Below, in pieces: positions 22,789 to 38,535 of a DNA stretch of 49,387 nt. A program made the translations under genes and the position numbers. The DNA is taken from the IMG/VR virus record IMGVR_UViG_3300032677_000048, positions 1 through 49,387 of that record; one strand, 5' to 3'. Position 1 is the first letter of the stretch. Each line of letters begins with the position of its first letter. Source of the stretch: a virus. The notes below the pieces were generated by a model, which was not told the DNA's origin, did no database searches, and saw only the letters and a list, made by a program, of their open reading frames with translations.

Positions 22789-22978
22789 AAATTGTCCTGA
22801 GTGTAGTGGTAGAGATTACATTCCAAAGAAAGACAAAGATGGTAAATATCTTTCATGTGAACATTGTGGAGGATTTGGCAAATCTCTAACTGATGATGGA
22901 CAAGATGTGGTTCAACAACTGTATGAGATTTATGGCATCAGTCCTATACCTGGAATTGTTTGCCATATTGAAAAGTAA
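22769..22978 (+). CDS. Small zinc-ribbon protein
   Basis: A 69-residue protein with two knuckles, CPECSGRD and CEHCGGFG (residues 9-16 and 30-37), as in DnaJ-type zinc ribbons. It overlaps the end of the 3D-domain gene by 20 bases. Such small proteins often bind nucleic acid or protein partners; the target is unknown. Confidence 0.55.
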   Translation: MTINLIENCPECSGRDYIPKKDKDGKYLSCEHCGGFGKSLTDDGQDVVQQLYEIYGISPIPGIVCHIEK

Positions 22979-23646: not shown

Positions 23647-24105
23647 ATGTTAACAAAAGAACAATTAAATGATATGCTTCAATTACTTGAAGCACATCGA
23701 GATGGTAAAAAAATTGAATATCAATCTATTTATTCTGATGGTAATGACCGTTGGCTAGACATTGAAGAACCATTATTTAACTTTGCCAATTATAGGTATC
23801 GTGTTAAAGTCAAACCAGAAGAATCAAATGATGTACTTCAATTAATTGAAGTACATCGATATCGTCCATGGCTTATTAGAGAAGTTCCAACTGGAGCATG
23901 GATTAGATGGAATGAATGTGGAAAGACTGAAATCATAGGGCGTAGATTTGGGTCACACGTCATTGTAGGAACAGTTGACAACAATATCATTCCATCAGTG
24001 CCTACATATAATATTTGTTGGTCAACAGACTTTATGTTGAGGTTTCTAGATTATTCTCTCGACCGAGGTAAATCTTGGCATCCTTGTGGAGTATTAGTCT
24101 CGTAA
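23647..24105 (+). CDS. Unknown phage protein with an internally duplicated motif
   Basis: A 152-residue protein. Two related openings occur, LNDMLQLLEAHRDGKKIEYQ and SNDVLQLIEVHRYRPWLI, about 60 residues apart, and the DNA of the two copies is also similar, so part of the gene looks duplicated. The WLDIEEPLFNFANYRYRVK segment matches a pattern common in small phage proteins that lack a known role. Confidence 0.5.
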   Translation: MLTKEQLNDMLQLLEAHRDGKKIEYQSIYSDGNDRWLDIEEPLFNFANYRYRVKVKPEESNDVLQLIEVHRYRPWLIREVPTGAWIRWNECGKTEIIGRRFGSHVIVGTVDNNIIPSVPTYNICWSTDFMLRFLDYSLDRGKSWHPCGVLVS

Positions 24106-24172
24106 TATAACTCCATATAAAATAGTATAACTATACCATTCAATTTCTTATAGTATTATCATCCAAATCACT

Positions 24173-24188
24173 TGGCACGATAATTGCT
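24173..24188 (+). promoter_or_regulatory. Sigma-54 (-24/-12) promoter
   Basis: TGGCAC-GATAA-TTGCT is a full match to the RpoN consensus. The predicted start is about 24199, exactly the first base of a 6-bp hairpin (CTCACT, 24199-24204, with AGTGAG, 24223-24228). It drives the 220-codon gene at 24270. Confidence 0.8.
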
Positions 24189-24269: not shown

Positions 24270-24932
24270 ATGTCCGAAAACACAACTGCAACTGTTCCTG
24301 CTAATATTCCGAATCCTCCGAAAGCTCCTCGTCCTGACTTGAGTAAGGTTGTCCCATACCTCGTAACTCGTAACACAGTCGAGAAAGCTCTTACTCCATT
24401 GGCTGGTAGTCGTAAAACTTGGGATGGTGTGGTGTATCAAGCTCCACAGGTGAGGACTACTGAGAACACTGGTATCATTGACGACCCACTCTTTATCGAA
24501 GACTTGGCATGGGCTGGTAAAGATAACATCGTTCGGGCACTTAATGTTATCTGGCGTCGTTTGGCTCAGGATGCTCATGCTGATGCTATTCCGGAGCATG
24601 ATAATGAACCTGGCTTCCCTGAGGGTAGTAAGGCGGGAGTGTTCGTTGCTGAACGGTTCATCAAATCCATCGAGAACTTCACTACGTCCTCTCTGCGTAT
24701 TAGTGAGTTAGTGGAATTATATGAGGAAGCTAATGCTGCATTCCAACGATATACGTCGAACGAACTCATCCCCGCTATCATGGCATGTAATGGTGATGTG
24801 GATAAGATTGCAGAGATCAAAGCGTATGTCAAGAAACTCGGTGATACTGTGAATCAGTACAAACTGGAAATCGATGAACGCCGCGCCAAGAAATCAAAAG
24901 AGGCGAATACTGACGAAGTTCGTCCTGAATAA
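24270..24932 (+). CDS. Abundant middle protein of unknown function under sigma-54 control
   Basis: A 220-residue protein, starting MSENTTATVPANIPNPPKAP, with a Pro-rich N-terminus, a central domain (about 40-150) and a long charged C-terminal helix (KAYVKKLGDTVNQYKLEIDE) ending in a disordered acidic tail. Codon choice is more biased than in neighbouring genes, as in the capsid gene, which implies high expression. It has its own sigma-54 promoter, and its leader has a hairpin at the 5' end. A hairpin at 24946-24970 follows the stop. An abundant DNA- or protein-binding role is a guess; no family was recognised. Confidence 0.55.
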   Translation: MSENTTATVPANIPNPPKAPRPDLSKVVPYLVTRNTVEKALTPLAGSRKTWDGVVYQAPQVRTTENTGIIDDPLFIEDLAWAGKDNIVRALNVIWRRLAQDAHADAIPEHDNEPGFPEGSKAGVFVAERFIKSIENFTTSSLRISELVELYEEANAAFQRYTSNELIPAIMACNGDVDKIAEIKAYVKKLGDTVNQYKLEIDERRAKKSKEANTDEVRPE

Positions 24933-24945
24933 TTAGATCATGGTA

Positions 24946-24970
24946 TGACAGGCACCAATAAGTCCTGTCA
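24946..24970 (+). terminator. Hairpin after the 220-codon gene
   Basis: TGACAGG (24946-24952) pairs with CCTGTCA (24964-24970) around an 11-base loop, 13 bases after the stop. The following bases (ATTAACTTCT) are only modestly T-rich, so it may be a weak terminator or a 3'-end stabiliser. Confidence 0.5.
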
Positions 24971-24976
24971 ATTAAC

Positions 24977-25117
24977 TTCTGTTGATAGGTGTAAGCTAGT
25001 GTGGCTGTAATTCTCGAAGCAGACTAAGCAACTGTTCTAATAACTCATTTAGAGTTTTATCGAGTAATAAGATTACCAAATGAAAATCATTTGTATTCTC
25101 CCTACCTATCAGCAGAA
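24977..25117 (+). repeat. 14-bp inverted repeat closing a multibranched intergenic structure
   Basis: TTCTGTTGATAGGT (24977-24990) pairs with ACCTATCAGCAGAA (25104-25117) with a single wobble. Inside are CTCG/CGAG, AACTC/GAGTT and CAAATGA/TCATTTG hairpins. This is the same architecture as at 21116-21368: a long closing stem with small helices inside. Confidence 0.6.
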
Positions 25118-25142
25118 ATTAGTTAACAATCAACCAAGAACA

Positions 25143-25305
25143 ATGAATGAAAAAGAAAAAGAAACTTGTTATATTTGTTGTGAAATCATCAATGTGTCGA
25201 ACGCCCGATCATGTATTTAAGTCTAAGTATAAAGCAAATAAATACATTAGTACAGACCCACTTCCTGAACAGTACACGTTACAACAATATACTGTTATTC
25301 AATGA
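25143..25305 (+). pseudogene. Small Cys-rich gene in two overlapping frames
   Basis: The ATG at 25143 encodes MNEKEKETCYICCEIIN and then stops after 25 residues. Another frame starting at an ATG at 25192 (MCRTPDHVFKSKYKANKY) runs to a TGA that overlaps the start of the next gene (25302-25305). The two pieces would fuse naturally with one base change near 25190, giving a small CxxC protein. Either the gene is frameshifted or two tiny overlapping genes exist; the coupling at the 3' end supports the second frame being translated. Confidence 0.4.
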
Positions 25306-25757
25306 AACAACCAAACAAAGAACAACCAGACAATACTACTCTTCCTACTGACGAACTTCTATATATTATATTAGGCGATGAACATTCTGGTAATGAACAT
25401 CGTACTATTCCTCCACGCGTTAGCGCGATTCTCTATCATAAACTTAAAAATTCCTTAGTCTATAAGGTAGTTCTTGAAGAAGATGGAAGCCATACGTTAT
25501 GGTGGTATAATGCTTGGTATAATGATACAGAACGTCGTAGGAAAATGAAAGAGTATTCAGAGAAGTTACGGGTGGAAGGGTGGTTACTGTCTGCGAATGT
25601 TGCTGATATAGCTAGAGCTATTCAGAAGTCTGCAAAGGTAGGTCAATCAACAGCAGAACAGATAGCATATTCGTTGATTAAGAATCCTAATGGTATGCTA
25701 GTGATTAAAGATATGTTTGGTATTAACAAATTAAAAGAGAAAGTTGAAGAGTTATGA
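25302..25757 (+). CDS. Unknown replication-region protein
   Basis: A 151-residue protein (MKQPNKEQPDNTTLPTDELL). A disordered start is followed by an alpha/beta domain with a Trp/Tyr-rich patch (SHTLWWYNAWYNDTERRRK) and a helical C-terminus. Both ends overlap neighbours by ATGA, coupling it to the helicase gene. It may be a helicase partner. Confidence 0.5.
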   Translation: MKQPNKEQPDNTTLPTDELLYIILGDEHSGNEHRTIPPRVSAILYHKLKNSLVYKVVLEEDGSHTLWWYNAWYNDTERRRKMKEYSEKLRVEGWLLSANVADIARAIQKSAKVGQSTAEQIAYSLIKNPNGMLVIKDMFGINKLKEKVEEL

Positions 25758-27958
25758 CACCAAAAGAACAACAAGCTCAAGAGAAGAGACAACGGTTAGT
25801 TATAAAAGGCATATGTAATAGGCTGTTGTCACAGTTCTCACTCAAAGGAGTGAAGACATGGGAAGATGTGTATAGAATGACAGGTTATGATGAGAGTTGG
25901 ATTAAGTCTCAGAGTAATTGTCTGTTGCCTATATCATTCAGTGAGTTGAAGAACTACTGTAAACAGTTGTCAGATAACTATGAGAAACAACTAAAGGAGA
26001 AATATGAAATCAAACAGATTATACAGACAGTCACAGAAACCATTGTCAAGAATAGAGAACCTGATACAACTAAGACTAATCCAACTGACACTGTCACACA
26101 AACCAAATGTGAAGTCATTACCGATTCAGTGGATGAATCAGGATTCAATAACTCCAATGATTACGGTTTGCAACCTTCGCCATTAGAGAAAGCCTTTCTA
26201 TTTTGGTTCCAGAAGAAATCTACTAAGGAATTGTTTGATGGTATAGTGGTAAAGAAGTATCCAGCCATGATGTTAATTGCATCTACTGGTACAGGTAAGA
26301 CATTCATCCAAGCTGCATTAGATAGGCGTTTGAAAGATATTAAGTTTGCTGAGTCTAAGACGTGGGGTCATGTGAATACTCTAGCTATCACTCGTAACTC
26401 TGTAGTAGAACAGACTAAAAGAGTATTGAGAGATAAGTTCTCTATCAATCCTATATCTGATACTGAGGTTATCAATATCGAGAAGCTTCGTACGAGAGCG
26501 GGACAGATATGGTTGGAAGAGAATAAGACTATTGTTGATGGTGAAGAAGTTACCATATGGAAGTGGAAACCTGTGATTAACCCTGCTGTGTTATTTATTG
26601 ATGAGTGTCAGGCTGTGAAGAACTCTGATAGTACTCAGCATAAGATCATATTGAAGTTCTCTGAGTTGGAGAACACTAGTCAGATATACATATCAGCTAC
26701 ACCATTTACTCGTGTATCAGAAGCGAAGTGTTTTGCTATTGCTACGAAGAAGGATATATCTAACTGGGGATTTCCTCCTGGTACTAGGTTGTCAGAAGCT
26801 ACATGGAATACGTATGCTTCTGCTATTGCTCATCCATCTGCACCAGAGGAATATAATGAGGCAGCAGTAGAGAGATTAATTAAAGACCTTGATGACTATA
26901 TAGTACGAGTTAAAGGCGTAAGGTGGCAGTTTAATGCTATTAATAGTGTAGAGATTATTGACTTTGAGAATGATGCTCAACACAAAGAATATCATGATGC
27001 ATGGGAAAGGTATCTGATTAAGAAAGCTAAGTTAGAAGAAGCTGTTACAGATAATCCTAGGTTTCAAGCTATGATAGAGTTGGGTATATTCTTAGCTGCT
27101 GCTGAGTATGCAAAGAGATACATCTTTGCGAAGAGAATGTATCGAGATGTTCAGGAAGGATATGCCGCAGTTTGTGCAGTTAAGTTTAAGAAAACAATCA
27201 TAGCTGTGACTAAGATTTTAGTAGAGGACTATGGAGTTCCTAGAGATAAGATTAGCTTAGTGTGGGGTGGTGGACAGACACAGCTTACTGCTAAGCAGAA
27301 GTTAAAAGCTCAAGTTAGAGCGAATGAAGATGTGTTCAAGATGGCAGGGATTACTATGGAGGACATGATGTTAGATGATGTTGAGGATAGGGTTATGGAA
27401 GATCTTGACCCTGCATTACGTCTAGGTAATCAATCTAAAGAACAACGTCAACTAGAGATTGATAGGTTTCAATCTGGGAAGTCATTGTACTGTATGTACA
27501 CATACAAAGCTGGTGGAGTAGGGTTGTCATTGCATCATACTGATGAACAAACGAAAGAGAAAGTTCGCAGACAAAAGAATGGGTATGCAGTGGTTGAGGA
27601 CATACCTAATATACCTACTCGTCCGAGGAAAGTTACTGTTGGACCTACCTGGTCACCTATTGAATTAGTCCAAGGTTGTGGTCGCGCGCCACGATTAACT
27701 AGTTTGTCGAATACTATTCAACATTTTCTTTATTATCGTGGTACAGTAGAAGAAGAACAGGCTTGGGTAGTTACGCATAGGTTGAAGTGTTTGTCGAAGG
27801 TAGTTCGTCAACATGAGTCATGGCAAGATTTGATATTGAATCACTCGAAGGCTAAAGAGATAGCTAAAGCTAGAGTAGAGGAGTATCAGAAGTTGGGTGA
27901 GTCAGATGAACCAGCTACTGAGTTTGGAGTTAACCTTGGTGAAGAGGAGGAAGAATAA
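25754..27958 (+). CDS. SF2 family DNA helicase / ATPase
   Basis: A 734-residue helicase. The N-terminal ~160 residues are a separate helical and disordered region. Motif I is ASTGTGKT (about 176-183), motif II is the Walker B DECQ in LFIDECQAVKN (about 282-287), motif III is SATPFTR (about 314-320), and motif VI is QGCGRAPRL (about 639-647). The arrangement is that of superfamily 2 (DEAD/Snf2-like) enzymes of phages that act in replication or recombination. The C-terminus is acidic (GEEEEE). It starts inside the stop of the previous gene (ATGA). Confidence 0.8.
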   Translation: MTPKEQQAQEKRQRLVIKGICNRLLSQFSLKGVKTWEDVYRMTGYDESWIKSQSNCLLPISFSELKNYCKQLSDNYEKQLKEKYEIKQIIQTVTETIVKNREPDTTKTNPTDTVTQTKCEVITDSVDESGFNNSNDYGLQPSPLEKAFLFWFQKKSTKELFDGIVVKKYPAMMLIASTGTGKTFIQAALDRRLKDIKFAESKTWGHVNTLAITRNSVVEQTKRVLRDKFSINPISDTEVINIEKLRTRAGQIWLEENKTIVDGEEVTIWKWKPVINPAVLFIDECQAVKNSDSTQHKIILKFSELENTSQIYISATPFTRVSEAKCFAIATKKDISNWGFPPGTRLSEATWNTYASAIAHPSAPEEYNEAAVERLIKDLDDYIVRVKGVRWQFNAINSVEIIDFENDAQHKEYHDAWERYLIKKAKLEEAVTDNPRFQAMIELGIFLAAAEYAKRYIFAKRMYRDVQEGYAAVCAVKFKKTIIAVTKILVEDYGVPRDKISLVWGGGQTQLTAKQKLKAQVRANEDVFKMAGITMEDMMLDDVEDRVMEDLDPALRLGNQSKEQRQLEIDRFQSGKSLYCMYTYKAGGVGLSLHHTDEQTKEKVRRQKNGYAVVEDIPNIPTRPRKVTVGPTWSPIELVQGCGRAPRLTSLSNTIQHFLYYRGTVEEEQAWVVTHRLKCLSKVVRQHESWQDLILNHSKAKEIAKARVEEYQKLGESDEPATEFGVNLGEEEEE

Positions 27959-27959
27959 T

Positions 27960-28103
27960 ATGACAAGTTTTAAACGTCCGATTGAAACAATGTTAGTAGA
28001 GCCAGAGTTTTCTTATATCAATAACGTTAAGATTGATGAACCACACAAGTCTTTAATAGAACAAAAAGTGAGAACAATACTACAAAAATATGTTAAAGTT
28101 TAA
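27960..28103 (+). CDS. 47-residue protein of unknown function
   Basis: A short frame (MTSFKRPIETMLVEPEFSY) that starts 1 base after the helicase stop and overlaps the ligase start by 14 bases. Tight placement supports translation; no function can be suggested. Confidence 0.45.
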   Translation: MTSFKRPIETMLVEPEFSYINNVKIDEPHKSLIEQKVRTILQKYVKV

Positions 28104-29100
28104 GAGGCCAATCCTAGCTGCATCCTTAATGCCATCTAACATTCCACACACTGATGAGAACATTCTATCAGCTATGTCTAAGTTACAATATCCTGTTCTA
28201 GCATCAGAAAAGATTGATGGGATTCGTGCATTGAGAATGAATGGAACTGTATTATCTCGCACATTGAAAGTGATTCCTAACCGTTCTATCTGTGATAGAC
28301 TTAAGATGTTGCCAGGTGGATTTGATGGAGAACTTTGGCATCCAGCTCTATCATACAATGAGATTGAGTCTATTGTAATGAGTCATGCTCATGCTATTTC
28401 TGATTTGATTAAGTTCTATGTATTAGACGTGTTCAATGAAGAACGGTATCAACAACGGGTTCAATCTATAACTAAATGGTATGAATCAATGGACACATCT
28501 CCCAATTATCATTGGACTCCTCCGTGTAGATGTACCACACCAGAAGAACTGTTTACATTCTTTCTTGATATGGAGACTCTTGGAGCAGAGGGAATATGTT
28601 TTAGATTGCCTATGTCTCCATATAAGCAAGGTCGCTCCACATTAGATGAACAGTATCTTGTCAAGTTGGCAAGGTTCATACGAACTGAGTTGAAGGTTGT
28701 AGGATTCAAAGAACAATTTGAGAATGGTAATCCTAATCAGTATAATGATATAGGGTATATGAAGCGTGCTACTAACAACGCCAATATGTATGGGAAGAAT
28801 ACGTTAGGTGCATTTGTATGTGTATCTAAATCTGAATGTGATATATTGGGTCCTGATATCAAAAAGATTGAGAATGGTAGTATCACATTTGTAAATGGTA
28901 ATACATGGCATGTTAGACCAGAATCTATTATTAATGTAGGTACTGGTATAAGGATGACTAACAAGTTGAGGAAAGAGATTTGGTTGAACCAAGATAAGTA
29001 TCTTGGTAAAACCATTATAGTAAAACATAAACCGCATAACCAAAAGGACAAACTACGTCATTCTATATTCGTAGGGTTTCGTAGTAGCATTGACATATGA
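28090..29100 (+). CDS. ATP-dependent DNA ligase
   Basis: A 336-residue protein. The nucleotidyltransferase motif I is EKIDGIRAL (about residues 38-46) with the adenylated Lys in KIDG. Further ligase motifs are visible as SRTLKVIP, GFDGELWHP (motif III-like, with the conserved Asp and Glu), and EGICFRLP (motif IV). A C-terminal OB-fold region would follow (about 230-336). The size matches phage T7-type ligases. It seals nicks in replicated DNA. Its TGA overlaps the next ATG. Confidence 0.85.
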   Translation: MLKFKRPILAASLMPSNIPHTDENILSAMSKLQYPVLASEKIDGIRALRMNGTVLSRTLKVIPNRSICDRLKMLPGGFDGELWHPALSYNEIESIVMSHAHAISDLIKFYVLDVFNEERYQQRVQSITKWYESMDTSPNYHWTPPCRCTTPEELFTFFLDMETLGAEGICFRLPMSPYKQGRSTLDEQYLVKLARFIRTELKVVGFKEQFENGNPNQYNDIGYMKRATNNANMYGKNTLGAFVCVSKSECDILGPDIKKIENGSITFVNGNTWHVRPESIINVGTGIRMTNKLRKEIWLNQDKYLGKTIIVKHKPHNQKDKLRHSIFVGFRSSIDI

Positions 29101-29288
29101 GTGATCTAACACAACAATCATTTGCTCGTGCCCAACGAGCTTATGATAGAATGACTGATGAGAGTCATTTCAGGCCATTAAGAACACAAGAACAACAAGA
29201 AGCATATGAAGATTGGCTGGAATCAAAGGCTGATGAAGCTAGAGATGAAGCACTGATTGAAAGGATGAATAATGAAAGAACACACTGA
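29097..29288 (+). CDS. Small acidic helical protein
   Basis: A 63-residue protein, MSDLTQQSFARAQRAYDRMT, highly charged and helical throughout. Start overlaps the ligase stop by 4 bases (ATGA). Unknown function. Confidence 0.5.
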   Translation: MSDLTQQSFARAQRAYDRMTDESHFRPLRTQEQQEAYEDWLESKADEARDEALIERMNNERTH

Positions 29289-29592
29289 TGAACAATTGAA
29301 GTTGGCTCTGGCAAAGATGTTGCCGGAGATACTAATGCATGACAACATATTTAACCGCATTCACTTTCATGAAGGCGAATATGTTAAGTGGCCAAAAGTC
29401 CAAGACACCGAATGGCTTCATGTCTGTTGGCTGGTGGAAGAGACACTCCTGGTCATAGAAAAAGCAAGTTACATTAACGAGCTTTGGGAATGTTGTAAAA
29501 TACAACCAACTGGTTACGAGTGGCTGTTTACTCACGCCACATGGCAACAACGCGCGATCGCGTTAGCAAAGGTGAAAGGAACTAAGATATGA
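29272..29592 (+). CDS. Unknown protein
   Basis: A 106-residue helical protein (MKEHTDEQLKLALAKMLPEI) with many Trp and His in its middle (VKWPKVQDTEWLHVCWLVEE). The pattern near the C-terminus (LFTHATWQQRAIALAKV) resembles small phage proteins of unknown role. It contains a CGCGCGATCGCG motif near its end. Confidence 0.5.
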   Translation: MKEHTDEQLKLALAKMLPEILMHDNIFNRIHFHEGEYVKWPKVQDTEWLHVCWLVEETLLVIEKASYINELWECCKIQPTGYEWLFTHATWQQRAIALAKVKGTKI

Positions 29593-29595
29593 AAC

Positions 29596-29919
29596 ATGAA
29601 AGATAATCGTATTGTAATAGACCTGTCTAAAGTACAGTGGGCTAGGTTTGGATGGAGGAATCAACATGGCGATTTTCGTCATATCAAACCTAATGTTCCT
29701 ACTGTATATAACCAAGCATTCAATCCTATTGAGCGTGCATTCATGTGTCCTAATAACATGACCATGTTAGACTATGCTATGCATAATCATCTGTTAGATA
29801 TATGGACACAAGAGGTTAAGTTTAAGGTAACAGCTAACACAACATTAACATATACTGGAGACAAAGCAGTTAGCTTATATAAAGCTTTCTGTGAGAGACA
29901 GTTTAACAAAAGGAAATAA
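29596..29919 (+). CDS. Unknown protein
   Basis: A 107-residue protein (MKDNRIVIDLSKVQWARFGW), basic, without recognised motif. It lies 3 bases after the previous gene and 3 bases before the sigma-54 activator gene, so it is part of the same operon. Confidence 0.5.
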   Translation: MKDNRIVIDLSKVQWARFGWRNQHGDFRHIKPNVPTVYNQAFNPIERAFMCPNNMTMLDYAMHNHLLDIWTQEVKFKVTANTTLTYTGDKAVSLYKAFCERQFNKRK

Positions 29920-29922
29920 TAT

Positions 29923-30828
29923 ATGCCACCACAACCAAAGAACAATAATGGACCCAAGGCTCCTGATGAGGCAGGGCTGAGGTTACTACTAGAGAATAAT
30001 TTAACAGAAGAAGCTCAGTCACTAATAGATAACCATAAGTTGCAGTATAAGATTGTCTGTAAAGATGGTAAGTATCTATTAGAAGATTCAGTAGTTGGTG
30101 CTGAGCTATGGCTTAAGAAGTTTATCACTGTTGATGCTGAGTCATTACAGATGAAAGATGACGCATTGAAGTTGTCGAAGATTGATGACGAAGTATTGAT
30201 TCATGGTGAAACTGGTACAGGTAAAGAGTTGATTGCACGGTCGTTAATTGGTGATAGACAGGGAGGGTTCTATCGAGTTAATTGTGCAGCTATGCCATCA
30301 AACCTAATAGAGTCTGAGCTATTCGGTCATAGCATTGGCGCCTTTACTGATGCAAAGAAATCAAAGAAGGGACTATTCGAAGTTGCCAAAGATGGAGTAT
30401 TGTTCCTTGATGAGATAGGTGATCTTCCTATTGATACTCAAGCTAAAGTTCTCAATGCTTTGCAACCTGTGGATGGCAAACGATACATTCGTCCTGTAGG
30501 TTCTAATGATGAGATTGAGATTAACTGTAGGGTGGTGTGTGCTACTCATAGGAATCTAGAAGAGATGATTGAACAGAAGTTATTTCGTATGGATTTATAT
30601 GCTAGGATATCAACGTTTGTATTAGAGATTAAGCCATTGAGATCTAGGAAGTGTGATGTGATTCCAATAGTTAAAGAGCTTGGTTTTATATTAAAGAAAG
30701 AATCCAAGGCTGCTGAGTTTCTTGATGTGTATCTTGATGACATTATGAATGACAAGTTGTCACTGAGACTTAATGTTCGAAGTCTTGAACAAGCAGTTAA
30801 GAGATTCTCTGTGTTAGGAAAAGTATAA
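29923..30828 (+). CDS. Phage-encoded sigma-54 activator ATPase (enhancer-binding protein without DNA-binding domain)
   Basis: A 301-residue protein. Residues about 68-295 are the AAA+ domain of bacterial enhancer-binding proteins: Walker A GETGTGKE (95-102), the loop ELFGHSIGAFTDA (132-144) which carries the sigma-54-contacting GAFTGA motif as GAFTDA, Walker B GVLFLDEIGDLP (158-169), an arginine-finger region FRMDLYAR (221-228) and sensor II NVRSLEQAVKR (284-294). These enzymes use ATP hydrolysis to open promoters bound by RpoN polymerase. There is no receiver domain; the first ~65 residues are an unrecognised domain. The protein ends right after the AAA+ domain, with no Fis-type helix-turn-helix. 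A sigma-54 promoter lies 43 bases downstream and four others occur in the genome. Confidence 0.9.
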   Translation: MPPQPKNNNGPKAPDEAGLRLLLENNLTEEAQSLIDNHKLQYKIVCKDGKYLLEDSVVGAELWLKKFITVDAESLQMKDDALKLSKIDDEVLIHGETGTGKELIARSLIGDRQGGFYRVNCAAMPSNLIESELFGHSIGAFTDAKKSKKGLFEVAKDGVLFLDEIGDLPIDTQAKVLNALQPVDGKRYIRPVGSNDEIEINCRVVCATHRNLEEMIEQKLFRMDLYARISTFVLEIKPLRSRKCDVIPIVKELGFILKKESKAAEFLDVYLDDIMNDKLSLRLNVRSLEQAVKRFSVLGKV

Positions 30829-30870: not shown

Positions 30871-30886
30871 TGGCATGAAACTTGCT
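30871..30886 (+). promoter_or_regulatory. Sigma-54 (-24/-12) promoter of the structured RNA locus
   Basis: TGGCAT-GAAAC-TTGCT matches the RpoN consensus with correct GG-N10-GC spacing. The predicted start is about 30897. It lies directly after the activator gene and reads into a long non-coding structured region and then the genes from 31323 onward. Confidence 0.8.
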
Positions 30887-30896
30887 TACAGTGGTA

Positions 30897-31290
30897 GCTC
30901 TGGAGTATTAAACTCCATTAACTTTCTTATCAGTACTGATGTTGGAAAGGTCACGACTGATAAGTTATCTAATAGGTGACTGTCTTGGTATGTATGACTC
31001 GTCATAGGGTCTGTACTAAGATGTGAGCTTGTTAGGATAGAGGGTTCCGTACCTCTCTAAAATAAACGGTGACTTCAGCATACATTGAATAGTAATGTTA
31101 GCTAGTGCATTATGGGTTTTTAAAGTGAAGTTAAACAATGCGCACGATAAATATATCATTGGAAACTTGACTGGTGAGAGATGCAGGAACTAGCTCGATG
31201 CTTCCAGAGTGTCTGGAGATAGATGACGACACAGTAAATGCACAACAAGTCGCTATCAGATTGGTGCAAATCCAATTCTCACCACCAATT
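30897..31290 (+). ncRNA. Structured non-coding RNA locus under sigma-54 control
   Basis: About 390 bases without a gene between the activator gene and 31323. Visible helices: TGGAGT/ACTCCA (30901-30906 with 30912-30917), right at the predicted 5' end; CTTATCAGT/ACTGATAAG (30926-30934 with 30956-30964), a perfect 9-bp stem; AGAGG/CCTCT (31039-31043 with 31052-31056); CAATG/CATTG near 31136-31161; and a tRNA-like element at its 3' end. It does not show the hallmarks of known families that I could check by eye. It may be a regulatory RNA, or the leader of the nuclease/recombination operon. Confidence 0.6.
31173..31287 (+). ncRNA. tRNA-like element with acceptor stem, T-arm and encoded CCA
   Basis: GGTGAGA (31173-31179) is exactly complementary to TCTCACC (31277-31283), followed by ACCA. 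Before it lies a T-arm-like hairpin ATTGG-TGCAAAT-CCAAT (31260-31276), 5-bp stem and 7-base loop. The interior is not a normal tRNA: a TTCCA/TGGAG hairpin whose loop reads GAGTGTC, and a longer stem CGAC/GTCG capped by GATAG/CTATC. Total length is 115 bases, too long for a tRNA and too short for tmRNA. The acceptor resembles bacterial tRNA-Ser. It may be a degenerate tRNA, a tRNA mimic for 3' processing, or part of the larger RNA. Confidence 0.5.
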
Positions 31291-31322
31291 TAGTACAACA
31301 AACAACATAAACAATAACAACA

Positions 31323-31928
31323 ATGTCCAATGATATTACACAACCAATAACTATTACTTATGCGAACAAGCAGATAGCATCGCAAGTAGTTGATCTACTC
31401 GTTCGCAAACGTCCTGTAGGCTGGGGGAGAAAATCGTATGCAACGTACTACAGGTCTGAGTATGCGATGCAACTTAAGAAAGAGTTAGATGCAATGATTG
31501 AAACACAGAAAGATAAAGTGTTTCGTCTTGATACTATGAGGCTTAGTCTCAACTCTACGTATCAAATGATTAACCAGTCATTCCATTTCCTTATGGATAA
31601 CGGTCCTGATGCTGAGAAGTATCGTGATCTGTGGAAGAAGATTAGGGTAGAGAGAGTTCGAGGTACAGCAGTATGTATTAGGTTTCGTGACTTTGCTACC
31701 GAGGTATTACGTGGAGAAGACTTTGTTGCGAGAGATGATAGGATGAAATGGAAGAAACAGATTGATGAGTATCTTAATGATGATACTGTATGTAAGCCAC
31801 TGCATATTCAACATCTGTTACTCTCGCCAGAAGATATGACTAATCTTAGGGCAGAGCTAGAAGATTTGACAAACATATCATTCTCTGTGTCATCTAAGGA
31901 AGTGAAGATCATTAAATTGAACGCATAG
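31323..31928 (+). CDS. Unknown protein, first gene after the structured RNA
   Basis: A 201-residue protein (MSNDITQPITITYANKQIAS), basic and mostly helical, with several Arg-rich patches (KKIRVERVRGTAVCIRF) that could contact nucleic acid. Its leader is A/C-rich with no Shine-Dalgarno site. It heads a set of tightly spaced genes continuing to the nuclease and kinase. No family was recognised. Confidence 0.5.
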   Translation: MSNDITQPITITYANKQIASQVVDLLVRKRPVGWGRKSYATYYRSEYAMQLKKELDAMIETQKDKVFRLDTMRLSLNSTYQMINQSFHFLMDNGPDAEKYRDLWKKIRVERVRGTAVCIRFRDFATEVLRGEDFVARDDRMKWKKQIDEYLNDDTVCKPLHIQHLLLSPEDMTNLRAELEDLTNISFSVSSKEVKIIKLNA

Positions 31929-31932
31929 TAAT

Positions 31933-32172
31933 ATGACAATAGAGGAAGTCATAGGTATGTCAGCAGATCAGTTAGAAGCTATGACTGATGCTGACCTAGA
32001 GAAACATTTTGCTCAGTACCTGATAGTAACTCGTCCTGAACAACAACCAAAACAACAACAAAAAGAGATGAGAGTGTTGGCAGCTAATCCTAAGTTTGAG
32101 CAAGCCCGTAAGGTTGCAGCAACATTAGGTATTGATCTGCCAGTATTCACATCAATGAGAAAGAGAGGATAG
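31933..32172 (+). CDS. Small protein of unknown function
   Basis: A 79-residue protein (MTIEEVIGMSADQLEAMTDA), acidic helical N-terminus, Gln/Lys-rich linker (EQQPKQQQKEM), basic C-terminus. It lies between two genes with gaps of 4 and 2 bases. Unknown function. Confidence 0.5.
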   Translation: MTIEEVIGMSADQLEAMTDADLEKHFAQYLIVTRPEQQPKQQQKEMRVLAANPKFEQARKVAATLGIDLPVFTSMRKRG

Positions 32173-32174
32173 TA

Positions 32175-33104
32175 ATGTCAGAGAAGATAACAATTAACCT
32201 ATCGTCATCTGCATTGAAGTATGCAGGTTGTGCGTTAGCGTTTGATAGAGCAATCATCAAAGGTTACAAAGAGAAAGCTATGCCTTGTCGTATGATATAT
32301 GGCATAGCTGGTCATGAGTTCATTAACACCATGTATCAGACTGGTGGACACATACCTACTGCAAGAGAGAAAGCTAGGGCTAAGTTTAACTTACCCAAGA
32401 TTGATGATAGGCGTTCTCCTCATATGTCTGATGTGAACCATATGTTAGCTGTGGCACTTTGGACTTGGGAGCTATGTGTAAAGAAAGAGGAAGAGTTTGA
32501 GATACTAGAGCTTAATGGTAAGCCTGCAACTGAGATTAACTTTAGTCTACCTTACTATGAGGATGACTATGTAGCTATCAATTGGTGTGGTACATTAGAT
32601 CGTATTGGTAAGATTAGGAATGGTATTTATATCATCCCTGATTGGAAGTTCACATCATCATATAGTGAGAAAGAATACTTCACACAGTATGAGATGAAGC
32701 CAGCACCAAGGGGTTATGCATTAGCTTTGAAGTTAATGGCAGAAAGATTTCCTGATAGTATATTGGGTCAAATTGGTAAGGGTGCAATTGGTACTAGGTT
32801 TGATGGTATCTTTGTTAAGCCTGAGATCAATAAGGTTACTTTTGCTAGGTCTGATGTGAAGCGATGGGATGAATCTGAGATCAATGAGTTTCGTGGATTG
32901 TTAGATGATCTGTGTAAGAAAATATCACACCATGTTAAGACTGGCTACCTACCAAAAGAAGGATTGACTAATAGTTCTTGTGAAGGGAAGTGGGGTAAGT
33001 GTATGTTCTGGAACTGCTGTAAGTCGCCAGATGTTATAGCACAGATGCTTCTCAAGAGAGACTTCGATATTAAACAATTTAACCCTCTTTCATACAACGA
33101 CTAA
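32175..33104 (+). CDS. PD-(D/E)XK nuclease of the RecB/Cas4 type with probable Fe-S cluster
   Basis: A 309-residue protein. The nuclease core is seen as YGIAGHEFI (42-50, conserved His), CGTLDRIGKIRNGIYIIPDWK (Asp142, Asp156, Lys158 as the D...DxK catalytic set) and QYEMKPAPRGYALAL (171-185, the Q-x-Y motif). Cys19 near the N-terminus and Cys269, Cys276 and Cys281/282 near the C-terminus are placed like the iron-sulphur ligands of Cas4 and AddB nucleases. Such phage exonucleases resect DNA ends for recombination, in line with the Sak4-like protein two genes downstream. Alternatively it degrades host DNA. Confidence 0.75.
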   Translation: MSEKITINLSSSALKYAGCALAFDRAIIKGYKEKAMPCRMIYGIAGHEFINTMYQTGGHIPTAREKARAKFNLPKIDDRRSPHMSDVNHMLAVALWTWELCVKKEEEFEILELNGKPATEINFSLPYYEDDYVAINWCGTLDRIGKIRNGIYIIPDWKFTSSYSEKEYFTQYEMKPAPRGYALALKLMAERFPDSILGQIGKGAIGTRFDGIFVKPEINKVTFARSDVKRWDESEINEFRGLLDDLCKKISHHVKTGYLPKEGLTNSSCEGKWGKCMFWNCCKSPDVIAQMLLKRDFDIKQFNPLSYND

Positions 33105-33105
33105 T

Positions 33106-33303
33106 ATGATTAACATCCCAGACTTTAGTTCTCATGTTCATAGAATTATGTGTGAGAGAGTTATTCGAGAGACACATCTTATACCAGACTTTGAGTATAT
33201 GATGATATATGGATACAAGTTAGCTATGATAGATTTGAGTGATAAAATCAAAGACGTAAATAAACAAATAACCAATAAGAGAAAGAACAACATATCATGT
33301 TAA
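33106..33303 (+). CDS. Small protein of unknown function
   Basis: A 65-residue protein (MINIPDFSSHVHRIMCERVI) with a helical, basic C-terminus. It starts 1 base after the nuclease stop and overlaps the kinase start by 7 bases. Unknown function. Confidence 0.5.
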   Translation: MINIPDFSSHVHRIMCERVIRETHLIPDFEYMMIYGYKLAMIDLSDKIKDVNKQITNKRKNNISC

Positions 33304-33827
33304 TAGGTATATCAGGTAAGAAGAGATCAGGTAAGGATACAGTAGCTAGTATCATTGCTGAGATATTAGATAATGCATCTGTGTTACACTTTGCTGATGC
33401 ATTGAGGTTGGAAGTTGCTAAGGCTACAGGGTTCTCGATTAGGTATATTGAAGAACACAAAGAGAACTTTCGTCTTATCTTACAAGGATGGGGTACAGAC
33501 TTTCGTCGTAAGATATATGGACATGATTACTGGCTGAAAGAAATGGATAAAGCAATTGGCGAACTTGAGAATTATGGTGGTAAGAATATCATCATAGCTG
33601 ATGTTAGGTTCGAGAATGAATATGACTATGTCAAGTCTCGTAATGGTATTATGATTCGAATAGAGAGGTCAGTAGATTATTCTGATACTCATGTGTCAGA
33701 GACTAATCTCGACAACAAAGAATTCGATCATAAGATATTGAATCTTGGTTCTGAGATAGAACTAAGAGAGAAAGTAACCAAGTTAGTAGAAGATATTAAA
33801 AGAGAAACAATTAACCAACAACTATAA
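33297..33827 (+). CDS. Deoxynucleoside monophosphate kinase
   Basis: A 176-residue P-loop kinase: GISGKKRSGKDT (4-15) as Walker A, ILQGWGTDFRRK (about 62-73) as the conserved segment of phage dNMP kinases (T4 gp1-like family), and IIIADVRFENEYDYV (about 99-113), followed by IRIERSVD. The enzyme phosphorylates dNMPs and so supplies precursors for replication. Its last base overlaps the start of the Sak4-like gene (TAATG-type coupling). Confidence 0.8.
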   Translation: MLIGISGKKRSGKDTVASIIAEILDNASVLHFADALRLEVAKATGFSIRYIEEHKENFRLILQGWGTDFRRKIYGHDYWLKEMDKAIGELENYGGKNIIIADVRFENEYDYVKSRNGIMIRIERSVDYSDTHVSETNLDNKEFDHKILNLGSEIELREKVTKLVEDIKRETINQQL

Positions 33828-34699
33828 TGAGTAACATTTACATTCCTCCTTCTTGTCGTACACTATCAGAAGATACAGCTAAGCAACAGATTCGTTTAGG
33901 TATTCAAGGATTTCCAGGTTCTGGTAAAGATTGGTCTATACTAGGAACACCAGATGGTAAGCAAAAAGGATTCCCTAATCCTATAGTATTGAATCTTGAC
34001 CGTGGTCTTGGAGCACATAGTCAATGTACTAACATCTATGAAGTCCCATTGTATAAGATGTTCAAACGTACAGAGCAGAAAGATAAATTAGTAGAATGGT
34101 TAGATAGGGAAGGTGGCAAACTTACTGAGAGTCAGACTCTCATTATTGATTCATTGTCATCCCTAGAACAGATTTATCATATCTGGTTCAAAGACAACGA
34201 ATCAGCATTAGCTGTATCATCCACTGGTGCGTACAATAACTTTATTGAATGGAATCTTAAGGACAAATGGTTCAATGAGATTCATAACATAGTTAAAGGA
34301 TTCAGGTGTGATATAGTTCTGTTGGCTCATGAAGCAGAACGTGCGGATAAGCCTACAACACCTGGTCAACCTGGGTTGTACACTGGTAAGATTCGTCCTA
34401 TACTTTCTGGTAAGTTTGGTGATTTGATTGTTAGAGAGTATACTGATTGGTTTCGTCAAATGTCTACATCCAAAGTTGCAGACCCTAAAGATGCAACTCT
34501 TGCCTCCTTTCGTATGACAAAGTCTGAGTTCATCAATATGCAGAACTCCTTTGCTGGTGACACTATTTATTACTGGGTTACTAAAGGTACTGATACCTTT
34601 GATGCTAAGGCATCGTCGTTAGTTAACCCTCCAACATTTATACCTGCGACGTATGAAGCGTTCTGCAAGTATAGTAGACAACAAACAAAACAACAATAA
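33827..34699 (+). CDS. Sak4-like RecA-fold recombination ATPase
   Basis: A 290-residue protein with P-loop GIQGFPGSGKD (25-35) and Walker B-like TLIIDSLSSL (about 104-113), then a conserved VLLAHEAER segment and PGLYTGKIRPILSGKF. This order is typical of phage AAA_24/Sak4 single-strand annealing proteins. Note Asp in place of Thr/Ser after the P-loop Lys. It would pair homologous single strands together with the protein at 34956. Confidence 0.7.
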   Translation: MSNIYIPPSCRTLSEDTAKQQIRLGIQGFPGSGKDWSILGTPDGKQKGFPNPIVLNLDRGLGAHSQCTNIYEVPLYKMFKRTEQKDKLVEWLDREGGKLTESQTLIIDSLSSLEQIYHIWFKDNESALAVSSTGAYNNFIEWNLKDKWFNEIHNIVKGFRCDIVLLAHEAERADKPTTPGQPGLYTGKIRPILSGKFGDLIVREYTDWFRQMSTSKVADPKDATLASFRMTKSEFINMQNSFAGDTIYYWVTKGTDTFDAKASSLVNPPTFIPATYEAFCKYSRQQTKQQ

Positions 34700-34703
34700 A
34701 CAT

Positions 34704-34871
34704 ATGCAAATAACAATTGTTCAGATATCTAATGGGTGGGTAGTGACTGTGTCATTTCCTGGTAAAGGTGGTTCGTCACTACACTGTACTGACTTTGAAG
34801 ATGTGATTAAAAAGTTGACTGATATGAAAAATGCTGCGAAGAAAGAACACGAAGCATCTCTTAAGAACTGA
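34704..34871 (+). CDS. Small protein of unknown function
   Basis: A 55-residue protein (MQITIVQISNGWVVTVSFPG) with a beta-rich start and a charged helical end (DMKNAAKKEHEASLKN). The ATG at 34704 is chosen because an upstream start would lie inside the Sak4 gene. Unknown function. Confidence 0.45.
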   Translation: MQITIVQISNGWVVTVSFPGKGGSSLHCTDFEDVIKKLTDMKNAAKKEHEASLKN

Positions 34872-34955
34872 TTAGAATTTCTCATTGGTATTGTCTTATC
34901 ATTGAGATGTAGTAAACAAACAAACAAACAAACAAACAAATAGAAAGTAAGTATT

Positions 34956-35501
34956 ATGCAAAAATGGAATGCGTCTCTCCCTTGGGTTAAGAAGTCTGAT
35001 TACATTCTTCGCTGTATCGAAGAAACTTTTGCTCCTGCTAATAGTGGGAATCCAATGGTTACATTGAAGTTCGAAGTTGCTGCTCCTGATGTAGTGACTG
35101 ATGACAACGGGGAAGAAATACAAGTTGCTGGAATACCGATTATGTTCTGGTGTGTGGTGAAATCTGTGACTGGTAATAAGAATCAGTCTCCTGAGGAAGC
35201 TACTGAACAGTGTAAGAAGAACTTCATTAAGTTGTTGACTGCTTTTGAGCTGCCGACAGATAAGATTGATTGGGATAATCCGACTCTTGGATTCAAAGGT
35301 AAGTTGGTCTATGCTATGTTGGAAGATAGTGAGCAAGCTCAACGTGGTAGTCCTACTAAGGCAGACTTGGCTAAGGGTATTAAGGTTGGGCCTATTCTGA
35401 TCAATCCTAAGACCAAGAAAGAGTTGATCAATCATTATCCGAAGATCAATGGTGTTGATTCTATCTTTGGTATTGCAACCATTGACAATGGAGGACTGTA
35501 A
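34956..35501 (+). CDS. Probable single-stranded DNA-binding partner (DUF669-like)
   Basis: A 181-residue protein (MQKWNASLPWVKKSDYILRC) with an OB-like beta pattern in its first half (NPMVTLKFEVAAPD) and a helical middle (CKKNFIKLLTAFELPTDKID). Many Sak4-type operons include a protein with this look that binds single strands or modulates annealing. Codon choice appears better adapted than in neighbours, in line with abundance. Its leader holds a long AAAC/AAAT repeat. The call is by pattern and context. Confidence 0.5.
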   Translation: MQKWNASLPWVKKSDYILRCIEETFAPANSGNPMVTLKFEVAAPDVVTDDNGEEIQVAGIPIMFWCVVKSVTGNKNQSPEEATEQCKKNFIKLLTAFELPTDKIDWDNPTLGFKGKLVYAMLEDSEQAQRGSPTKADLAKGIKVGPILINPKTKKELINHYPKINGVDSIFGIATIDNGGL

Positions 35502-35502
35502 T

Positions 35503-35637
35503 ATGCTCACAGAAACCTTGTGTTTTGGCGTTGACATTAGTGTGTCAAGTGAGGACGAGCTCAATAAGATTACCGTTACTATAACAGAAGCTATTGAAAA
35601 AGTTTCTGGTGTGGAAGATGTTATTTTTGTTGACTAG
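35503..35637 (+). CDS. 44-residue acidic protein
   Basis: A short frame (MLTETLCFGVDISVSSEDEL), acidic, with a beta-alpha-beta feel. It starts 1 base after the previous stop and ends before a hairpin (TTCTCCGT/ACGGAGAA, about 35689-35713) that precedes the polymerase gene. Unknown function. Confidence 0.4.
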   Translation: MLTETLCFGVDISVSSEDELNKITVTITEAIEKVSGVEDVIFVD

Positions 35638-35724
35638 GATGTAGTTGAAGATGAGACAGAAGATTAGTAAGTAACACAACACTCGCTTTCTCCGTCGTGC
35701 TATAACGGAGAACAATTTCTACAA

Positions 35725-37437
35725 ATGTTACGATCTAGGCCAATTTTACGATATAGTGGTATGACAGTTGTGATGAGCAACCCATCACGATTTGATACTC
35801 ATAAATTGTTGTCTGGTAATGGTGGGTCTATGTTTGGCTCTTATTGTTTGCGACCAGAGTTGAACTCTATGCAATGTGATGTGAGGCTAGTTGAGGATAA
35901 GTCTCCATTGTTAGATGGTACGAAAGTGATACTGATTCTAGGTGAGAAGGCTATGCATAGTATGTTACCAGAGACACTGAATAATACCATACATGAGATG
36001 AGAGGAAGTTTATTCCACTACAAATCTGTCCCATGTGTATGTTCGTATCTACCACAAGAAGCAACTGACATATATAAGAATTATGAAAAAGAGAATAATC
36101 CTATGGCATCAGACTATACACCAGACGATACTGTATCTGATGATGGTGAAGATGACGAAGGCAACGTTAAAGCACACGGCAAAACAAAGAGAAGTAACTA
36201 TGCGTTTTGGCTTAAAGCAGATGTTAAGAAGTGTAAGCATCTTCTTACCAATAGGCCACCCAGTCTTGATGGACCTAAGTATCATATCTTCCCAGGGTCA
36301 GAAGTGGTTATCGAAAGGCTTACTACAACCAAGAACCAACACTTATACTTCGACATAGAAACCGATTATGAAGAACAGAATCTTCAATGCTTTGCGTTCA
36401 GCTTTGACGGGGTTAATATTTACTCTGTGCCTATTCTTGATTATACTTATCATCCTGCCTATATTGATTATCATCGCATTATGCGAGCATTGGCAGTGGC
36501 TGTTAGGGACAATATTGTTGTCGCTCATAATGGCGCTTGTTTTGATTTCTTGGTACTTGCACATAAATACCATATACCAATCAATCGAACCTATGATACA
36601 CTCATAGCAATGCATAGATGCTTCCCTGATGTTGAGAAGTCGTTAGGACATTGTGTGTCATATTGGACATGGGAGAAGTTTCATAAGGATGAGGATAGTC
36701 AGGGGTACCGAACGAATGAACAGATGATGGCAAGATTGAAGTATTGTGGCAAGGATGTGTATACTATGTATCTTATCCACCAAGCTGTCATTAAGTATGC
36801 TAAGACTATACCAGGATTGCAGAAGTCTATTGATGACGCTATGGCATGTATACGGCCATATTTAATATCTACATTGCAGGGTATTAAAGTCAACCAGTCT
36901 ATGATAGATGGTATGTGTAGAGAGAATGATAGGCTCATGATGCAATACAATAGAATCATAGAGTTCCTCATTGGCCCACAGGGAATGGAAGACATTAGAC
37001 AGGGAAAGAAGCTTGGTATGTTTGCAGGGTCTAACAAACAATGTTGCAAATACTTCCATGATCTATTAAATTATCCTGTTGTAGCTAAAGGTAAACCTGA
37101 TACATATGGTCAGACTCATCCGTCATTAGGCAAGAAAGCTTTGTATCGCTTAGCATTAAAAGTAGAGAACCCTGTGATCAATCTTATTGCAGCTTATAGG
37201 TCAGTAAAGAAGGAGACAACTAGGTTACGCTTCCTCCCTTGGAAACCATCTCGTGATACAACTCAATGGCACATAGGTGGTACTAAAACCTTTCGATTAG
37301 GTAGTAGAGGTATATTCAAGAAGAAGCGTTTAATAGAACAAACAGGTGAGATTAAAGAAAGAGGGTTAGGTGGCAATTTGGCAAACATTGAGAAGTCAAT
37401 GAGGGAGATATACATCCCTGATGGATTAACAATTTAA
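35725..37437 (+). CDS. Family A DNA polymerase, N-terminal part: UDG-like domain, 3'-5' exonuclease and thumb
   Basis: A 570-residue protein. Residues about 10-115 resemble a uracil-DNA-glycosylase-fold domain (VILILGEKAMHSML, MRGSLFHYKSVPCVCSYLP) as found fused to some phage polymerases. The exonuclease follows with YFDIETD (about 207-213), NIVVAHNGACFDF (about 262-274) and YCGKDVYTMY (about 338-347). The region GGNLANIEKSMREIYIPDG near the end is the segment that normally comes a few residues before motif A. The frame then stops, and the palm continues in the same frame at 37540. A start at a later Met (about 13) is possible. Confidence 0.8.
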   Translation: MLRSRPILRYSGMTVVMSNPSRFDTHKLLSGNGGSMFGSYCLRPELNSMQCDVRLVEDKSPLLDGTKVILILGEKAMHSMLPETLNNTIHEMRGSLFHYKSVPCVCSYLPQEATDIYKNYEKENNPMASDYTPDDTVSDDGEDDEGNVKAHGKTKRSNYAFWLKADVKKCKHLLTNRPPSLDGPKYHIFPGSEVVIERLTTTKNQHLYFDIETDYEEQNLQCFAFSFDGVNIYSVPILDYTYHPAYIDYHRIMRALAVAVRDNIVVAHNGACFDFLVLAHKYHIPINRTYDTLIAMHRCFPDVEKSLGHCVSYWTWEKFHKDEDSQGYRTNEQMMARLKYCGKDVYTMYLIHQAVIKYAKTIPGLQKSIDDAMACIRPYLISTLQGIKVNQSMIDGMCRENDRLMMQYNRIIEFLIGPQGMEDIRQGKKLGMFAGSNKQCCKYFHDLLNYPVVAKGKPDTYGQTHPSLGKKALYRLALKVENPVINLIAAYRSVKKETTRLRFLPWKPSRDTTQWHIGGTKTFRLGSRGIFKKKRLIEQTGEIKERGLGGNLANIEKSMREIYIPDGLTI

Positions 37438-37529
37438 GGAGGTGGCCCTATACTCTTGGAGTTGGAACTCACGTCTAATAACGTGTTCCCCTACTAAGCT
37501 CCAGTTGTTCTAGGGTCTACCAATTTCAA
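37438..37529 (+). other. Structured insert splitting the DNA polymerase gene
   Basis: Between the two polymerase parts lies a strong nested hairpin: GGTGG-CCCTA (37441-37450) pairs with TAGGG-T-CTACC (37511-37521); inside, TGGAG pairs with CTCCA; and at the tip, GGAA-C-CACG pairs with CGTG-TTCC (about 37465-37489). AAGGAGGTG, a perfect anti-16S match, overlaps the first stop codon. Three in-frame TAA codons (37435, about 37495 and about 37531) separate the halves, which are in the same frame. CAATTT flanks the structure on both sides. Confidence 0.6.
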
Positions 37530-37539
37530 CTAACAACCA

Positions 37540-38535
37540 ATGAATAAGTTATACGACAAGTGTGCCTACTATATGGCATCAGGAGATCTATCAATCTTCT
37601 CTGATGAAGAACGAGAGACTCTTAAGATATTCGTACAAACAGATCAATCAGGTGCTGAGGCACTTATAGTAGCATACCTCTGTAATCCTGGAGACTTCCG
37701 TCAGTTATTTATGCATGGAGTTAAGCCTCATGTGTATGTAGCATGTCATGTGTTTATGGAAGTGTGGAAGAAGAAAATGAGAGAGTTGCATATATCAGGT
37801 GATATTAAGTTCGACTCTGAGTTAATATTGCACACACCAATTAAAGATTTGAAGTCTATTCCATATTGGAAAGAGTTAGATCTGTTGATTAAGGATTCTG
37901 ATAACTGGTCATTAGACCAACGGTATTACTACCTAGCAAAACAGACGTGCCATAGCTCAAATTATGGTATTACAGCAGAACCATTTCGTATGAACATACT
38001 AGAGAAGTCTGGTGGTAAGATAGTAGTGTCTCGTCAAGATGCAGAGTTCTTTCTTACTACATATCACTCATTGTTTCCTGAGATCAGAGATTGGCATAGG
38101 CGACTTCGTACACAAGTGGAGCAAACTAGGATAGTATATAATCTTCACGGTCATCCATTAACTATTACATGGCATGAGATTCCAGAGAACAAATGGAAAG
38201 AAGTATTTGCAGTTCCTGCACAATCAACTGTGGGTATGATTACTAACATTGCATTTGCAAAGTTGCAAGAGGATACTGAGATAAATAATAGGAAATGGGA
38301 CCATCTAATTAACTGTCATGATAGTGTACTATCTCAATGTCCCGTAGGAGAGGAACGAGAGCTAGGTTTAGCACAGAGGAAGTTCATTGAGCAAGACTTT
38401 ATATCTCCTGTGGATGGTGCGCCATTTAAGATGAGGTCAGAAACACAATTTGGTTTCAACTGGGGAGTTTTTAAGAAAGGTAAAGATGGCAAACCTGATG
38501 TTAATAAGTTAGGCTTAAGAGAAATGAAATTTTGA
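37540..38535 (+). CDS. Family A DNA polymerase, C-terminal part: palm and fingers
   Basis: A 331-residue protein. Motif A is FVQTDQSGAEALIVAYL (31-47, catalytic Asp35), motif B is in YYYLAKQTCHSSNYGIT (about 127-143, with the conserved Lys, Tyr and Gly), and motif C is INCHDSVLSQ (about 257-266) with HDS in place of the usual HDE. The first 30 residues (MNKLYDKCAYYMASGDLSIF...) are extra relative to a continuous polymerase. No Shine-Dalgarno site stands before the ATG. The two halves together have every catalytic element, so a functional split or spliced polymerase is likely. Confidence 0.8.
   Translation: MNKLYDKCAYYMASGDLSIFSDEERETLKIFVQTDQSGAEALIVAYLCNPGDFRQLFMHGVKPHVYVACHVFMEVWKKKMRELHISGDIKFDSELILHTPIKDLKSIPYWKELDLLIKDSDNWSLDQRYYYLAKQTCHSSNYGITAEPFRMNILEKSGGKIVVSRQDAEFFLTTYHSLFPEIRDWHRRLRTQVEQTRIVYNLHGHPLTITWHEIPENKWKEVFAVPAQSTVGMITNIAFAKLQEDTEINNRKWDHLINCHDSVLSQCPVGEERELGLAQRKFIEQDFISPVDGAPFKMRSETQFGFNWGVFKKGKDGKPDVNKLGLREMKF

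Follow-up and report, generated by a model that had tools for sequence, protein, structure and literature searches.

The window analysed here is the whole of IMG/VR virus record IMGVR_UViG_3300032677_000048, a stretch of 49,387 bases with a GC content of 39.5%. In a near-identical contig (G003/L014), 57 nt separate the two ends of the window, which is therefore a near-complete phage genome. Replication genes are carried on the plus strand (helicase, ligase, dNMP kinase, Sak4, a split DNA polymerase A and a DUF3987 primase) and virion genes on the minus strand (terminase, portal, a conserved capsid candidate and a 1,804-aa protein). Searched against Pfam and PHROGs, the main proteins of the window include no RNA polymerase or sigma factor, and the capsid and portal proteins had no match in the phage collection searched. 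The relevant genes and operons are as follows.

24270 to 30828, + strand: operon ending with the activator gene, behind the -24/-12 site at 24173
24270 to 24932, + strand: first gene of the activator operon, no known function, 35-45% conserved in close relatives
25754 to 27958, + strand: DNA helicase (phrog_62/16)
28090 to 29100, + strand: ATP-dependent DNA ligase (phrog_114)
29923 to 30828, + strand: predicted minimal sigma-54 activator (bEBP) gene, 301 aa; AAA+ domain and N-terminal module of about 66 aa, no HTH
31323 to 39891, + strand: replication module (31323, 31933, 32175, dNMP kinase, Sak4, 34956, split polymerase, primase)
35725, 37540 and 38545, + strand, within the replication module: split DNA polymerase (35725/37540) and primase (38545)
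8925 to 10247, - strand: major capsid protein candidate, inferred as the most conserved late gene (79-85%)
11982 to 17738, - strand: packaging operon (portal 11982-13910, terminase 14752-16785, small HTH protein 16739-17185)

DNA polymerase A is split between two adjacent genes (570 and 331 aa; 35725-38535), and this two-gene form is kept in relatives. The early region encodes a small cysteine-rich protein (22769-22978) with a weak anti-TRAP/zinc-ribbon match that falls under the Pfam cut-off (E-value: 8.7e-06). An imperfect array of repeats containing CAGGTGGC/ACCGGT separates the divergent gene blocks (18227-18520) and is possibly an origin or regulatory region.

The activator ORF begins with ATG and has a GGAAA element just 5' of the start. 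Its AAA+ domain contains the following motifs.

30205 to 30228, + strand: Walker A, GETGTGKE, residues 95-102; G95 and T97-E102 invariant in 27 phage homologues
30337 to 30354, + strand: L1 loop, GAFTDA, residues 139-144, predicted sigma-54 contact; GAFTGA, GSFTGA or GAYTGS in relatives
30403 to 30423, + strand: Walker B, FLDEIGD, residues 161-167; D163 and E164 invariant in homologues
30583 to 30606, + strand: arginine-finger segment, FRMDLYAR (R222, R228); R228 invariant, R222 at least 90% conserved
30772 to 30780, + strand: sensor II, NVR, residues 284-286; N284 and R286 invariant in homologues

Motifs that serve ATP hydrolysis or contact with sigma-54 are nearly all invariant or at least 90% conserved among homologues of 37-67% identity. 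In the L1 loop, T142 is invariant across the 27 homologues and G139 and G143 are at least 90% conserved. The GAFTDA form is peculiar to the phage of the window, most relatives having GAFTGA or GSFTGA; it is present in a natural Desulfovibrio activator, DVU2106 (PMC4641369).

The protein has the conserved domain PF00158 (Sigma54_activat; E-value: 6.8e-54, 182.5 bits against a cut-off of 20.2) and so belongs to the profile family. The features that define a bEBP of this family (a variant of the L1 loop, Walker A and B, one or more arginine fingers and sensor II) are all present. The sequences that it matches in the PDB are all of the sigma-54 activator type (FleQ, NtrC1, NifA and PspF; E-values of 6e-46 to 1e-36 for FleQ, NtrC1 and PspF). 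An AlphaFold2 model built on the 27 homologues has a mean pLDDT of 93, and in Foldseek its best PDB match is FleQ (E-value: 3.5e-24; TM-score 0.80 by target length), followed by NtrC1 and FlrC, with PspF also matched; the fold is thus that of the solved activators. A C-terminal Fis-type HTH, which is usual but not universal in the family, is missing: there is no HTH match, and the protein ends directly after the lid helix bearing sensor II, leaving none. This does not exclude the protein from the bEBPs because natural exceptions such as CtcC exist. Residues 1-66 form a small, poorly conserved module of helix and strand that is not a receiver, has no family match and is missing from the shortest relatives (241 aa; L052-L054). 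The original prediction of a minimal bEBP with every one of these motifs, lacking both receiver and HTH, is confirmed by translation, Pfam and AlphaFold. Two of the checks that it proposed, a profile search and structure prediction against PspF/NtrC1, came out in its favour, as profile, PDB-sequence and fold searches all rank sigma-54 activators first. Judged by family and modelled fold, the product of 29923-30828 is a sigma-54 activator AAA+ ATPase; its activity is inferred.

A matrix scan of the 49 kb for -24/-12 promoters gave five sites with scores of 16.9-18.7 that outrank everything else, the next best scoring 13.6. They are the same five on which the original prediction rested, and all fit TGGCAY-N5-TTGC with the invariant GG and GC in a 16-nt layout. 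The exact pattern TGGCAYGNNNNTTGCT occurs five times, whereas 300 order-2 Markov sequences averaged 0.03 occurrences and never had more than one. The matrix is an informal rendering of the published consensus, so independent weight is placed on reversed-matrix controls and on conservation in relatives.

24173 to 24188, + strand: -24/-12 site TGGCACGATAATTGCT, score 18.7, before the operon 24270-30828 that holds the activator
30871 to 30886, + strand: -24/-12 site TGGCATGAAACTTGCT, score 18.1, 43 nt past the activator stop and before the replication module
10403 to 10418, - strand: -24/-12 site TGGCATGATTCTTGCT, score 18.1, 155 nt upstream of the major capsid gene
17763 to 17778, - strand: -24/-12 site TGGCATGAGAATTGCT, score 16.9, before the packaging operon (terminase, portal)
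48535 to 48550, - strand: -24/-12 site TGGCATGATAATTGCT, score 16.9, inside the conserved ORF 48352-48705; weakest of the five

The claim that the promoters stand at sensible places holds for four of the sites, which are intergenic, precede operons and are clearly conserved between relatives. It does not hold as well for the exception, 48535. This site is upstream of 47406-48368 and the internal virion operon, but it lies within a conserved ORF, where it overlaps the conserved peptide GMI[IL]A. It is missing in two relatives, and one genome (G011) keeps a near-identical peptide, GMIMA, without the site. Protein coding may explain such conservation as the site has. Because of the overlap with a conserved protein motif, 48535 is not independently supported.

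Between the site at 30871 and the first gene of the replication module is a long untranslated stretch.

30887 to 31322, + strand: structured non-coding leader, 436 nt, between the sigma-54 site and gene 31323

Taken over its full length, the leader is more stably folded than shuffled versions (z -3.2), and blocks of its sequence recur in some relatives. The 3' part is tRNA-like, with a 7-bp acceptor (GGTGAGA/TCTCACC), a T-arm, CCA and a long variable arm. Neither ARAGORN nor Rfam recognised this fold in the window; ARAGORN does call tRNA-like genes in contigs L028, L026 and L039.

Activators without an HTH are found in at least 27 different IMG/VR phage contigs, which belong to a large group of environmental phages that has apparently not been described. 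Scanning viral contigs with the activator as a single sequence gave no match, whereas an alignment search succeeded and returned 80 loci. About 33 of these are HTH-less (241-322 aa), 27 remaining after near-copies and partial ends were removed. The HTH-less proteins form one clade (SH-aLRT 96) separate from the HTH-bearing and from the portal-fused activators, and the activator protein constitutes a new branch of a known family. The genes share a module order of helicase, (ligase), activator, -24/-12 site, 31323, 31933, an exonuclease-like gene and Sak4, ending with 34956, the polymerase halves and the primase. PHROG 7998 (function unknown) matches the activator domain, and so such genes are present in phage catalogues without a stated role. 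BFVD contained no viral protein of the activator subfamily (best match 14% identity).

Most matches to the activator in phage records turned out to be bacterial EBPs, from records that are mislabelled or are prophages. One exception is Phage DP SC_2_H4_2017 (L107), a human-gut record with a distant HTH-less homologue: its unannotated EBP-like protein (19761-20684) has a changed Walker A, GETGTDKE; no -24/-12 sites were found in that record. Eleven further contigs (L093, L094, L096-L102, L104 and L105) encode phage proteins of about 780 aa with a C-terminal EBP-type AAA+ domain that lacks GAFTGA. These proteins form a clade of their own, and the only one scanned with Pfam (L099:8300-10666) has an N-terminal portal domain (PF06381).

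Conservation of the sites was followed in relatives gathered by terminase, portal, capsid and activator alignment searches (capsid identity 47-100%), with 11 genomes mapped using the window proteins. The capsid-gene site is present about 135-160 nt upstream in all 11 mapped genomes, in a weaker form, TGGCATAAAAAATGCT, in G011. Equivalents of the packaging-operon site occur in nine of these genomes, and equivalents of site 24173, upstream of the 24270-like gene, in seven. The -12 element takes the form ATGC in several lineages. Of 27 contigs, 24 have a site no more than 600 nt past the activator gene (0 in the reversed-matrix control). At scores of at least 16, the HTH-less group has 45 sites compared with 1 for the reversed matrix, while contigs with other EBPs have 11 compared with 4. 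Eight virus records were reached through the capsid; seven, all of the near-complete major capsid relatives newly tested, encode the activator, while the eighth, a fragment of 33.7 kb, stops short of the activator position. Each of these records contains 6-10 matches to the pattern, whereas reversing the pattern yields 0-2. Both the activator and the -24/-12 pattern are missing from two Akkermansia phages whose named terminases are similar. Since some of the contigs are closely related to one another, not every count represents an independent event. As read from these genomes, activator and phage sites are inherited together across the phage clade, and their joint retention supports the original proposal that the phage uses host sigma-54 for its own genes.

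Several other explanations can be weighed against this distribution. Site 48535, inside a conserved ORF, is the kind of match that would be expected if the sites were chance or coding artefacts and the gene an ordinary bacterial contaminant. That is scarcely credible for the set as a whole: five sites were found where 0.03 were expected, and the other four are intergenic and conserved. Nor does a contaminant fit a gene that in most of about 30 contigs belongs to the helicase-to-primase module, with phage replication genes on either side, or a window that is itself a near-complete phage genome. The location within the replication module could instead indicate a replication or packaging motor that has lost its sigma-54 role, and the fusion elsewhere of an EBP-like AAA+ domain without GAFTGA to a portal shows that the fold is reusable. 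Against this, nearly all members keep the sigma-54 contact loop, and the -24/-12 sites track the activator; this explanation is most improbable. It is also conceivable that host activators mainly drive the phage promoters and that the phage protein chiefly switches on host sigma-54 regulons, since an untargeted AAA+ activator would fire host sigma-54 promoters too, as DctD250 does (PMC3844500). We consider this very unlikely, given that activator and phage sites are co-inherited over great divergence, that a site so regularly follows the activator gene, and that the tested relatives without the activator are also without the sites.

A second sequence element accompanies some of the promoters.

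24103 to 24131, + strand: two TARTATAAC elements 20 nt apart (24103/24123), upstream of site 24173
30831 (+ strand) and 17804 (- strand): further TARTATAAC copies, upstream of sigma-54 sites

TARTATAAC thus occurs 34-70 nt upstream of three of the five sites, in the same orientation, and at 13 of 68 sites in the 11 genomes, compared with 2% of random 120-mers. The early region also contains an alternating cluster of the element (20102-20258), including a palindromic pair at 20238-20258 (AATATAAC-TCACT-GTTATATT). TARTATAAC is possibly a phage operator or UAS. Its enrichment could mean a binding site for a partner or repressor, which leaves pure solution activation unsettled. A two-part system, in which a second phage protein on TARTATAAC recruits the activator or represses the promoters early, would account for the spacing, the shared orientation, the paired copies and the palindrome. 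The element is missing, however, at the capsid promoter and at most sites of the relatives. No other shared k-mer or palindrome upstream of the sites, considered as an enhancer, stood out above chance (p about 0.08-0.19), and no candidate for a partner DNA-binding protein was found among the window proteins searched. A two-part system remains a possibility, albeit an unlikely one.

The explanation that we favour, with considerable confidence, is a constitutive, solution-acting activator that opens host E-sigma54 at the phage operons, its own included. The protein family, the loss of domains, the sites and their conserved placement beside the activator are observed; binding, ATPase activity and transcription are inferred, and a host with rpoN is presumed. 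The proposed sequence of events is as follows. Host RNA polymerase with host RpoN would sit on the phage -24/-12 promoters as silent closed complexes. The first activator molecules would come from early or read-through transcription. The trigger has not been identified, and sigma-70-type promoters between 17.6 and 31.4 kb are at chance level (54 found, 52 expected) and so uninformative on this point. The activator would then assemble an AAA+ ring, touch sigma-54 through the GAFTDA loop and open the complexes using ATP, as inferred from how strictly its catalytic and contact motifs are conserved. With no receiver and no HTH, it should need neither a host signal nor a dedicated enhancer; the independence of host signals is deduced from the lack of a regulatory domain. 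Because site 24173 stands before the operon whose last gene is the activator, the circuit would show positive feedback and be self-amplifying. The remaining sites would feed replication, packaging, capsid and perhaps the internal virion genes.

Activation of sigma-54 promoters by the AAA+ domain alone has precedents. DctD250, which consists of the AAA+ domain only, activates sigma-54 promoters promiscuously, constitutively and without an enhancer (PMC3844500), and PspF1-275 activates sigma-54 from solution (PMC2745333). Chlamydia CtcC lacks a DNA-binding domain, and its ATPase domain is a precedent for solution activation (PMC7482065). An engineered M13 carrying pspF switches on a sigma-54 promoter upon infection (PMC11720261). 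Against the model, GAFTDA departs from GAFTGA, site 48535 is ambiguous, start-up is unexplained and TARTATAAC may imply a partner. The broader statement, that a widespread clade of tailed phages uses the host sigma-54 holoenzyme as its main replication and virion transcription machine by means of a signal-blind, self-amplifying activator, is also likely, and is made with somewhat more reserve.

There is only a weak lead to the host. The terminase is nearest to those of Akkermansia phages, at only 26% identity, which would point to the Verrucomicrobiota, a group that has sigma-54 regulons (PMC12316311). A scan of genome contigs for a host gave a lone match, to a phage contig binned with a methanogen. 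This contig, L106, carries a capsid relative (84%); it is binned with a Methanoregulaceae archaeon MAG and is probably a misbinned phage contig.

The original prediction knew of no well-characterised phage that supplies such an activator. In agreement, the literature, as far as open-licence papers are concerned, yielded no natural phage-encoded sigma-54 activator, the engineered M13 being the sole related case, and the use by a phage of a sigma-54 activator with a matching promoter set appears to be undescribed. In M13-pspF, a phage-delivered activator turns on a sigma-54 promoter at infection, as is proposed here. That system, however, is a synthetic circuit with full PspF, including the HTH, and a UAS, and the genes of M13 are not under sigma-54.

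Phages are otherwise known to redirect the sigma-70-type polymerase or to replace the polymerase. T4 AsiA, MotA and gp55, SPO1 gp28 and T7 RNA polymerase are all phage-made and redirect transcription to middle or late genes. These factors work through a sigma-70-type holoenzyme or by polymerase replacement, and to our knowledge none acts through sigma-54 and ATP hydrolysis. If the model is correct, takeover would occur not by a new sigma factor or polymerase but by ATP-driven opening of a pre-loaded polymerase that stays silent until the ATPase acts, a different control principle for a virus. The model predicts that the phage grows only in hosts with rpoN. The marking of phage genes by -24/-12 sites would provide a sequence-level handle for finding more such viruses, and the proteins would serve as small, promiscuous activators with which the sigma-54 regulons of uncultured bacteria could be mapped.

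Among the sigma-54 activators, FleQ, NtrC1, PspF and NifA have the same AAA+ fold and motifs as the phage protein (32-40% identity to the phage domain), but they carry regulatory and/or HTH domains and answer host signals, whereas the phage protein is without these. FlgR of Helicobacter and Campylobacter is a sigma-54 activator that naturally lacks the HTH. CtcC resembles the phage protein in having no DNA-binding domain (PMC7482065); both CtcC and FlgR keep a kinase-controlled receiver, of which the phage protein has none. The closest likeness is to DctD250 and PspF1-275, which consist of the AAA+ domain alone, lack receiver and HTH, and act on sigma-54 promoters from solution. Those two proteins are artificial truncations, whereas the phage form is natural and conserved with its own promoters, and it would supply natural cases of an AAA+-only activator that has hitherto been mainly a laboratory construct.
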